A stretch of DNA of 41,715 nucleotides from Rhodothermales bacterium (GTDB taxonomy: Bacteria > Bacteroidota > Rhodothermia > Rhodothermales > UBA10348), in assembly GCA_024711125.1 (NCBI GenBank), contig JANJTM010000035.1:1-41715 (forward strand), read 5' to 3'. Position 1 is the stretch's first letter. Each line of letters opens with the position of its first letter. Positions 1 to 41,091 of the stretch are shown here, in pieces. A program made the translations under genes and the position numbers. Below the pieces are notes generated by a model. It saw only the letters and a list, made by a program, of their open reading frames with translations, was not told the DNA's origin and ran no database searches.

Positions 1-146
1 ATCGTCTCCCGGGTCCGGTCGAAGTGCTTGCGGTCGCTTTCCTCGAAAAGCTCGTGCCCGACCAGCCAGGCCATGTTGAGCCGCACGAACTCCCCGTGCA
101 GGCGGGGGTCCCATCCGACGATGCGCACGTCGTCCGGCATCGTCAT
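1..146 (-). CDS. GNAT family N-acetyltransferase, N-terminal fragment
   Basis: Only about 48 N-terminal codons are inside the window; the rest lies beyond position 1. The start ATG at 146-144 overlaps the TGA stop of the epimerase-like gene upstream (ATGA overlap), which indicates translational coupling. An internal ATG two codons later is an alternative start. The visible residues include IVGWDPRLHGEFVRLNMAWL and then an acidic stretch (LFEESDRKHFD). This matches the first strand and first helix of GNAT acetyltransferases, where 'RPxxxxDxxxxxxLNxxWL' precedes the acetyl-CoA domain. The catalytic and CoA-binding parts are not visible, so the acceptor substrate cannot be inferred. The family call rests on the opening pattern only. 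Confidence 0.6.
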   Translation of the reverse strand, partial: MTMPDDVRIVGWDPRLHGEFVRLNMAWLVGHELFEESDRKHFDRTRET

Positions 147-14482: not shown

Positions 14483-15138
14483 AAAAGGAAAAGCTCGTCA
14501 TCCCCGTCGCGATCCTGCTCGTGGTCGCATTCGCCGTGGGCCGCTACGCATTCAACACCGAGAAGGCCGAGGCGCTCGCCTTCGCGGCCAGCGAGAATTT
14601 CGAGGCGTTCGTTCGTCCGCACGCCCGCGTGTACGGCCCGGCCGACGCGAAGGTCGTGATTATCGAGTTCACCGATCCGGCCTGCGAGACATGCGCGGCA
14701 TTCCATCCGTTCACGCGTCACCTGATGGACCAGCACCCGGGCAAGGTGAAGACCGTCGTGCGCTACGCGCCGTTCCACGGGGGTTCGGACCAGGTCGTGC
14801 GCGCACTCGAGGCCGCCTCCCGGCAGGCCGACTACTGGCAGGTGCTCGAGCTCGTGTTGCAGACCCAGGCCCAGTGGACGCAGAACCACCAGGTGCTCAT
14901 TGACCGCCTTCTGCCCATCCTGGCCCAGGCCGGGCTCGACATGGAACGCCTCCAGGCCGACATGAACGACGGGGCCATCACACAGCTCATCGGGCAGGAC
15001 CTGGCGGACGCCGAGGCGCTCGGCGTCACCAAGACGCCGGGTTTCTTCGTCAACGGCAAGCCGCTCGTGACGTTCGGCTACGAGCCGCTGCAGCAGCTCG
15101 TCGAGGCGGAAGTGCGGGCGCAGTATCCGGCCAACTAG
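14479..15138 (+). CDS. Membrane-anchored DsbA/BdbD-like thiol oxidase
   Basis: This 219-residue protein has an N-terminal basic-hydrophobic segment (KKEKLVIPVAILLVVAFAV), either an uncleaved anchor or a signal peptide. A thioredoxin-fold DsbA domain with a helical insertion follows. The redox site is Cys69-Glu-Thr-Cys72, after FTDPA, and KTPGFFVNG near the C-terminus supplies the cis-Pro loop. It should introduce disulfides into exported proteins and be reoxidised by the DsbB-like partner. The start is GTG at 14479, overlapping the dsbB stop; no closer ATG preserves the anchor. A hairpin-rich repeat array begins directly after its stop codon. Confidence 0.9.
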   Translation: MKKEKLVIPVAILLVVAFAVGRYAFNTEKAEALAFAASENFEAFVRPHARVYGPADAKVVIIEFTDPACETCAAFHPFTRHLMDQHPGKVKTVVRYAPFHGGSDQVVRALEAASRQADYWQVLELVLQTQAQWTQNHQVLIDRLLPILAQAGLDMERLQADMNDGAITQLIGQDLADAEALGVTKTPGFFVNGKPLVTFGYEPLQQLVEAEVRAQYPAN

Positions 15139-15176
15139 GCCGCGTCGGCGCTCCGGGTGGACGTCCGACCCGGCAC

Positions 15177-15384
15177 GTCCTGCCTGCAGGGTAGGACCGA
15201 ATCGGAATCGTCCTCCGGGACAAGCTCCGAACTTCCATTCGGGGGCCGAATCGAAGCAGAACGTCCTTCGAACGGACGCCGAACTTCCATTTGGTGCCTG
15301 AATCGAAGCAGAAGGTCCTTCGAACGGACGCCGAACTTCCATTTGGGGCCTGAATCGAACTGGTGGGTATTTGACCAGGGCGTG
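15177..15384. repeat. 52-bp tandem repeat, subfamily A (three clear copies plus one diverged)
   Basis: Clear copies begin at 15229, 15281 and 15333, exactly 52 bp apart, each opening with GAACTTCCATT. A diverged copy precedes them at 15177. Each unit has two foldbacks. The first is CTTC-x-ATT(C) around a G-rich loop with GAAT-x-GAAG (15232-15256 in the first clear copy). The second is CGTCC/GGACG around TTCGAAC (15262-15278). In the copy at 15333 the second foldback sequence is replaced by CTGGT/ACCAG (15360-15364 with 15374-15378), and pairing is kept. The period is not a multiple of three, so these are not protein repeats in a single frame. Confidence 0.9.
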
Positions 15385-15482
15385 CTCACGCTTGGCCCGG
15401 ATCGGAACTCTACGGTCCGGTCGGACCCATGCAGGGGAAACCGACCCAGTCATCGACCACGACGGTCGCCGGCGGGGCAACA

Positions 15483-15638
15483 GTGCACTTTGGCCCCGGA
15501 AGTGCACAAAACGGCCCTTCAATCGCGCGCATTTGTGCACTTTGGCCCCGGAAGCGCACAAAACGGCCCTTCAAACGGGTGCAGTTGTGCACTTTGGCCC
15601 CGGAAGTGCACAAGACCGCCCTTCAAGCGGGTGCGGAA
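15483..15638. repeat. 52-bp tandem repeat, subfamily B (three copies)
   Basis: Copies begin at 15483, 15535 and 15587, exactly 52 bp apart. Each starts GTGCACTT, has the 9-nt loop TGGCCCCGG, and closes with AAGTGCAC (AAGCGCAC in the middle copy). In the third copy two more base pairs extend the stem outward. The second half is a foldback around CCCTTCAA. Its flanks change from CGG/CGC-like to ACCGCC and GCGGG in the third copy, while pairing persists. The backbone CCTTCRAACGG is shared with subfamily A although the first stem is unrelated, so A and B look like homologous units with exchanged stem sequences. Confidence 0.92.
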
Positions 15639-15757
15639 GCGAGAGAACGGCTCGGCCAGCGCCCGGCCCACCTCCCGCACCGCGCATATTCAGCGACCCG
15701 CGTATCAAATGGCCACGTCACTGCCGTAAGGAGTCGCTCGTGAAGCGTGAACACACC

Positions 15758-16381
15758 CTAGGCCGGCCATGCCACCGCGAGCGCGCATTCGTCGCTGACG
15801 TCGAATGCGACCTGCCACGATTCCCCGTCGTCGGCCCGCACCCGGGCGGTGCCGGCTGGGTCGAAGTGCGCGATGCGCAGTGATTTCGGAGAGTGCCTGA
15901 GGCCCGTGCGACGGCCCTTTAGCACCGACTCCTTGATCGACCAGAGGAGCGCGATGCGGCGATCGACGGGACCGGGCACCGTGTCGGGCAGCGCGGCTTC
16001 ATCCGGCCGCAGCATGAACCGGTACAGGCTCACCGATCGCGGCTTGATGCGCTCCAGATCCACGGCGACCCGATGATCGCCCATGACGGCGACGACGTCC
16101 AGTGCCGAGTGGGAGATCGAGACGTGGAGCCCGGTGCCCGGTACGGCAAGCGAGCCGTCCTCCTCCACGCGAACCTCCACCGCGCCTGCGGAGCATCCCA
16201 CGCGTTCGGCCACGAGGGTTCGGGCGGCAAGCCGCCCGACGGCGAAGGTGGCGCGGCGGTCGTCGTGCCGGAACGAAGCCATGCGCTCGGCCTCTTCCGC
16301 CGACAGCACGGACGCCGCGGCTCTGCGCGTGGCGGCGTCGGCGTGCAGGCGCAGCAGGGCAATCGATGGCGGAAGCGTCAC
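15758..16381 (-). CDS. 4'-phosphopantetheinyl transferase (Sfp-type)
   Basis: This enzyme of about 207 residues moves phosphopantetheine from CoA onto a serine of carrier proteins. Signature motifs are LHVSISHS (85-92), VAVDLERIK (105-113, with the Mg ligands Asp108 and Glu110) and WSIKESVLK (147-155, with Glu151 and Lys155). The N-terminal part [14 protein letters not shown] fits the family. The start is taken as GTG at 16381. Longer in-frame extensions run through the sodA terminator hairpin and into the sodA coding region, and the family N-terminus needs only about 100 residues before SHS. No carrier-protein synthase lies nearby, so the target is unknown. The gene ends at the hairpin array. 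Confidence 0.88.
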
Positions 16382-40485: not shown

Positions 40486-40842
40486 TTGCCGGAGTTCCTC
40501 TACAACGACAAGCTCTACTACAACCCGGTGGAGTTCGCGATGGACCGCATCGGCGGCACCTGGAAGATGCCGATCCTCTGGAGGCTGCGATCGCGCGTGA
40601 TGCGGTACGGCGAGCTGAAGAAGGACCTCGGCCGCATCACCCACAAGATGCTCTCCACCCAGCTCAAGCAGCTCGAGGCCGAGGGATTCATCCACCGGGA
40701 GGCCTACCCGGTCATTCCGCCCAAGGTCGAGTACTCGCTGACCGACCGCGGCCGTCGCGCCATCGAGATCATCGAGGGTCTGCGGACGTACGGCCTCGAG
40801 CTGATGGCCGAATTCGGGGTCGGGGAGGAGGGGCGGAGGTGA
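40486..40842 (+). CDS. HxlR-family winged helix regulator lacking cysteine
   Basis: This 118-residue protein has the HxlR/MarR-like fold. NPVEFAMDRIGGTWKMPILWRL (13-34) is the family opening, followed by RYGELKKDLGRITHKMLSTQ (40-59), the recognition-helix region. VEYSLTDRGR forms the wing. The start is TTG at 40486, supported by AAGGAGAG seven bases upstream and by the family N-terminus. Many relatives (YodB, HypR, QorR) sense quinones or disulfide stress through a conserved N-terminal Cys that precedes Pro-Val. Here that position is Asn13, and the whole protein has no Cys, so sensing must work differently. The likely target is the divergent DJ-1 operon. Confidence 0.93.
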   Translation: MPEFLYNDKLYYNPVEFAMDRIGGTWKMPILWRLRSRVMRYGELKKDLGRITHKMLSTQLKQLEAEGFIHREAYPVIPPKVEYSLTDRGRRAIEIIEGLRTYGLELMAEFGVGEEGRR

Positions 40843-40884
40843 GCGTCGGCCTGGTGGGGCGCCAATTCCCGCTTTCGGCACGAC

Positions 40885-41091
40885 GAAGTGGAAAATCGCC
40901 GCAGATTCCACGTCGGAAGCCGCTCTTCGAGGCTGCGAAGTGTAAAACAGGGCCAAATTCCACTTCCGGTGCCTGTTTTGGGGTCTCCGAAGTGTAATTC
41001 GGGGCTGAATTCCACTTCCGCGCGCGAAAAATGGCCTCGGAAGTGGAATATCGCCTCAGTTTTCCACTTCGGGGGCTGTCCTTCGGTGACT
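40885..41091. repeat. 52-bp hairpin tandem repeat, locus 2 (four copies)
   Basis: Units start at 40885, 40937, 40989 and 41040 (spacing 52, 52, 51), each with GAAGTGKAA. In each, an inverted repeat closes with TTCCACTTC or a close variant. In the third unit the stem (40989-41018) is 12 bp with one mismatch. In the fourth it is a perfect 9 bp (41040-41048 with 41062-41070). The second half of each unit is a weaker, variable foldback. The array fills the gap between the stops of the HxlR gene (plus) and the BsuPI-like gene (minus). The motif CGGAAGTG is shared with the repeats at 15.5 kb. Confidence 0.9.

Follow-up and report, generated by a model that had tools for sequence, protein, structure and literature searches.

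Two neighbouring arrays of short palindromes lie in a 41,715-nucleotide stretch of DNA from a Rhodothermales bacterium (contig JANJTM010000035.1, assembly GCA_024711125.1; the window refers here to this whole stretch), and they share one unit length on different stem sequences. What maintains the length when the sequence changes? A sequence-only reading of this DNA had described three copies starting at 15229, 15281 and 15333 and three at 15483, 15535 and 15587, all exactly 52 bp apart, with a first stem wholly different between the two sets. Both the different stems and the spacing were confirmed in the sequence, the latter also by TRF, which scored the two 52-bp arrays at 231 and 248. A third array, of family C, had escaped that reading. 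The features discussed below are as follows.

15136..15377, plus strand: A-type element remnant, with a left end homologous to those of loci L048, L051 and L053 and a degenerate terminal inverted repeat aligned by eye.
15227..15359, plus strand: array A, three palindromes with arms CTTCSAT / ATSGAAG, loop 11, spacer 27 and period 52 (sequence and chaining).
15232..15256, no strand: array A palindrome 1, CTTCCAT-N11-ATCGAAG (sequence and chaining).
15284-15308 and 15336-15360: array A palindromes 2 and 3 (chaining).
15378..15758, plus strand: B-type MITE-like element enclosing array B, with inverted ends GGGCGTGCTCACGC (15378-15391) and GCGTGAACACACCC (15745-15758) and paralogues on contigs C54, C66, C64, C32 and C72 of the same genome.
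15483..15634, plus strand: array B, three palindromes with arms GTGCACT / AGTGCAC, loop 11, spacer 27 and period 52 (sequence and chaining).
15483..15507, no strand: array B palindrome 1, GTGCACT-N11-AGTGCAC (sequence and chaining).
15535-15559 and 15587-15611: array B palindromes 2 and 3 (chaining).
40486..40842, plus strand: HxlR-type HTH gene immediately 5' of array C, with matching gene and array fragments inside several inverted-repeat-bounded elements elsewhere.
40885..41070, plus strand: array C, four palindromes with arms GAAGTGKAAT / ATTMCACTTC and periods of 52, 52 and 51 (sequence and chaining).

The arms of families A, B and C are mutually unrelated in sequence, and arrays A and B are out of register, with 251 bp separating corresponding arms. 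Units inside one array are often near-identical. The backbone CCTTCRAACGG, which was said to be kept in the second half of the units, has its exact form in two copies of A and one of B and matches a second B copy to within one mismatch, but is only loosely conserved elsewhere in the genome. Diverged units had also been reported before and between the arrays; a single degenerate partial unit, common to other A-type loci, is indeed present 5' of array A (approximately 15177-15226), whereas the sequence between the arrays proved to be the left end of the separate element at 15378-15758.

Chaining revealed at least 31 arrays of families A, B and C in the genome, 20 of 31 with exactly three palindromes. 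The arms of these families are CTTCSAT (A), GTGCACT (B) and GTGKAAT, in a longer form GAAGTGKAAT (C); a family D (approximately TGTCGMA) has fewer copies, and a further arm family, AGGTTYAA, occurs in the sister genus G009. All families follow one ruler, in which an arm of 7 bp, a loop of 10-12 bp, an inverted arm of 7 bp and a spacer of 26-28 bp add up to 51-52 bp. We counted lags of 36 to 71 between alternating inverted arms in 727 kb of fetched sequence, which was not random since much of it was chosen for A, B or C arms, and found 19 loci at lag 51, 27 at lag 52 and at most three at any other; the BLAST searches for the arms had left the lag free. A 580-kb sample picked without regard to arrays gave three lag-51/52 detections at two loci. 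The census and the free-gap pattern searches described below thus bore out the earlier expectation of many loci and the description of a constant length with swapped stems, at 51-52 bp. Family D arrays with the same period, a loop of about 12 and a spacer of about 26 were seen at L047:1000-1160, L139:19540-19700 and L143:18930-19090. More arrays probably exist than were counted, because some contigs end in or beside these repeats (L116, start of C56; L080, end of C27; L056, end of C55; L115, start of C47). A period-55 palindrome pair at C81:158896 was rejected as an array member, as it looks like an operator before a downstream gene.

When gaps were left free, the ruler remained nearly invariant. 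In the fetched sequence all loops were 10-12 bp (3-30 allowed), and spacers were 26-28 bp (5-60 allowed) except for two in G000 and two in G009/G018. For family B, with gaps of 4-34 and 12-42 allowed, 19 of 20 own-genome matches had a loop of 11 and a spacer of 27, and the reversed control gave none; for family A, the loop was 11 in 6/6 and the spacer 27 in 5/7. A search of G009 for ATTMCAC-N{13,43}-GTGKAAT returned 46 matches, all with N of 26-28 (reversed control, 0), and the same arms gave five matches in G018, with spacers of 26, 27, 27, 28 and 30 bp. The 45 distinct family-C-type spacers of G009 fell into 31 unrelated clusters at 65% identity, and yet all were 26-28 bp long. Judging from these sequences, spacer length is therefore selected and not merely inherited. 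Duplication alone is insufficient, since the length is fixed in spacers that have no common sequence, and local homogenisation of one ancestral unit, which had been offered as an explanation, is too simple on the same count. A period of 51-52 bp fits five turns of 10.4 bp, in agreement with the suggested placement of the sites on a single face of the helix; this is a fit, and no proof of helical phasing.

In place of a covariance model, we used pattern searches with free gaps and counted the stem pairs directly. The one commonly variable arm position of family C (G/T) was G-C in 38 cases, mismatched in 16 and T-A in 3, with no association between the arms (P=0.43), and in G009-type hairpins it was mismatched in 29 of 39 and T-A in none, with an association opposite to pairing (P=0.0004), both P values being approximate because units within an array are related. 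At the degenerate K/M position the two arms vary independently of each other, and no excess pairing was seen in family C loops. Compensatory stem changes of a structured RNA family were not found in these counts. The proposal of selection on the foldback structure did not stand by the refuting condition set along with it, as pairing is not kept beyond chance in family C and mismatch is the rule in the sister genus; what holds of the original idea is the dispersed 52-bp design. Family C folds better than shuffled sequences (z of -4.2 and -6.4), which is expected of an array of inverted arms, and the folding scores of A and B are modest. A conserved mismatch could matter for a single-stranded hairpin, and the counts lower the standing of an RNA explanation. 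No Rfam family matched at the gathering score; a sub-threshold mir-17 match was judged to be chance.

In the window, MITE-like elements with inverted ends (GGGCGTGTTCACGC) enclose array B and adjoin array A, which itself sits in what is left of an A-type element. The A-type remnant starts at the TAG stop of an upstream DsbA-like gene (15136) and runs from a degenerate left inverted repeat through a segment common to other A-type elements to array A, which adjoins the B-type element; its right part is missing, having been cut off by that element. The end motif GGCGTGTTCACGC, with at most one mismatch, has 64 matches in the genome, and its reversed control has 2; some of the 64 are chance matches within genes. 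In the elements that we tabulated, conserved ends enclose a variable array (the ends on C35 and in one C54 entry are approximate). Many arrays have no conserved inverted ends, and most family C arrays are free-standing outside such elements. None of the 64 end matches revealed a parent IS with flanking inverted repeats or an inverted-end pair around a transposase; two matches about 1.7 kb apart on C10 were discarded as an IS, both being inside ordinary genes. The DDE_Tnp_1 profile (PF01609) had no match, and BLAST of the B element against 60 relatives gave short chance matches only.

A TAG stands directly at the start of inverted-ended elements at L048:543, L049:1052, L051:555, L057 (near 1052), L005:848 and window position 15136, at several of them apparently as the stop codon of the preceding gene. 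Since several elements start at TAG, TA or CTAG may be favoured as a target; no clean target duplications are seen. The HxlR gene and array C of the window have matches in several A/C-type elements (83% over 40744-40968 and 91% over 40592-40634), which suggests that inverted-ended elements pick up host sequence, the direction of transfer being presumed. Segments of the HxlR gene with family C hairpins were seen inside such elements at L045, L046, L048, L049, L056 and L057, and resemble gene-fragment capture by MITEs.

The arrays are intergenic, with one exception (L111) that is probably a gene-calling artefact, and are often found downstream of genes. Convergent flanking genes are enriched, at 8 of 28 array loci versus 16 of 176 sample intergenic regions (P=0.007), as counted from gene calls by a codon-usage script made for this analysis. 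The genes adjoining the arrays included none that recurred and had no common theme. Among 114 genomes of the order, family C-type arrays occur only in G000, G009 and G018, which represent two genera within a single family. No match to the arm pattern of family C turned up in the order's 113 other genomes or in 84,980 GTDB genomes, from which the genome itself was possibly left out. Family B matches were confined to G000, bar one elsewhere with different spacing. Generic scans of small samples (400 kb of G002 and 120-140 kb each of G013, G026 and G030) showed no such array. The two arrays that G009 carries at L281 have no counterpart at the equivalent position of G018, where only one flank aligns. 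Plasmid and phage collections contained no B- or C-pattern matches, and viral contigs were dismissed as carriers, as their four B-pattern matches and one C-pattern match look unrelated by eye. In the sister genus, at least five 52-bp units form a longer array at L316 (approximately 1301-1577; G009 C1:1235050-1235369), and a 229-bp tandem duplication at L179:3010-3469 (G009) carries inverted arms and may be a composite element.

Among known kinds, BIMEs come closest and, in the case of the carriers, BOX elements; the arrays belong completely to neither. BIMEs, built from REP/PU sequences, are described as dispersed intergenic arrays of regularly spaced palindromes in alternating orientation (PMC2817692). 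The arrays share this regularity, alternation and dispersal between genes, but their arms are 7-10 bp against 20-40 bp for REPs, their ruler is stricter and their arm families are interchangeable. The Y1/RAYT transposase profile PF01797 was absent from G000, G009 and G002, while positive controls were detected, and we therefore rejected a REP/RAYT system. The GTAG/CGTC tags named for REP palindromes in another source (PMC3733652) were not seen at the palindrome feet when the arrays were read by eye. BOX elements of Streptococcus pneumoniae (boxA-boxBn-boxC) are small and have inverted ends around tandem modules in variable number (PMC3049150). Inverted-ended elements similarly carry the A, the B and some C arrays here, but most family C arrays are free-standing, the module is a phased palindrome in several unrelated arm versions, and no parent IS was found. 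A CRISPR array was rejected, because successive arms point in opposite directions and the same spacer often recurs inside an array, and strict pairing and the array form speak against an uptake-sequence function. Three-site recombination loci such as Tn3/gamma-delta res contain several dimer sites placed a whole number of helical turns apart. The arrays resemble them in this spacing, but are equally spaced and occur at dozens of dispersed loci.

We consider the chances about even that the arrays are phased double-stranded binding platforms for a putative oligomeric family of DNA-binding proteins, in which the protein, its oligomeric state and its role are all postulated. Each palindrome would present a pair of inverted 7-10 bp half-sites with inner ends about one helical turn apart, and palindromes every 51-52 bp, about five turns, would let an oligomeric protein assemble on one DNA face, usually over three palindromes. 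The fixed spacing of differing sequences suggests docking sites rather than RNA hairpins, and because unrelated arms share one ruler, related proteins may have changed specificity and kept their assembly geometry. The arrays would have spread as small intergenic repeats, some riding in BOX-like inverted-ended elements, as both arrays A and B do, and could serve as nucleoid or topology sites, or as recognition sites of a mobile system. The finding that no gene recurs beside the arrays speaks against this reading.

One rival reading gives the arrays no host function. Selfish REP/BIME-like repeats, with palindromes recognised by a putative non-Y1 transposase or recombinase and a ruler set by its synaptic complex, would agree with the many unlinked sites, the several arm families, the lineage restriction, the intergenic placement and the array pair absent from G018. 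We regard this as unlikely, given that neither a Y1 transposase nor DDE_Tnp_1 was found, that constant ends belonging to the arrays themselves are lacking, and that a nearly fixed palindrome number and phase is unusual for REPs. Transcribed RNA hairpins under structural selection, as first proposed from the sequence (a terminator, an mRNA stabiliser or a small RNA), seem quite unlikely: the foldbacks, their negative fold z-scores and the frequent position downstream of genes would suit them, and three phased copies could be compatible with an RNA too, but the stems do not covary and are predominantly mismatched in G009, Rfam offers no family above its gathering score, and spacers keep their length without their sequence. 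Very unlikely, and already disfavoured above, is a neutral origin in which an ancestral 52-bp unit was duplicated in tandem and homogenised, in part while carried along by MITEs; near-identity of units within an array is what it would produce, but it leaves unexplained the 26-28 bp length of spacers without remaining similarity and a ruler common to three unrelated arm sequences.

If the arrays are indeed phased binding platforms, they might represent a new class of chromosomal site, defined by a 7-11-7-27 bp ruler and usually three palindromes, whose readers would be diversified paralogous proteins, one for each arm sequence, so that a genome would hold parallel and mutually independent DNA-organising or recombination systems. 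We put this forward tentatively, as a possibility that we doubt more than we favour. Few bacterial intergenic repeats retain their geometry while arms and spacers change in sequence, and this combination speaks for a defined protein assembly. BLAST and covariance models detect such repeats poorly but a spacing test can pick them up, so that similar systems may have been overlooked elsewhere. If the protein family were found, the arrays would provide ready test sites for the diversification of specificity under a fixed assembly geometry.
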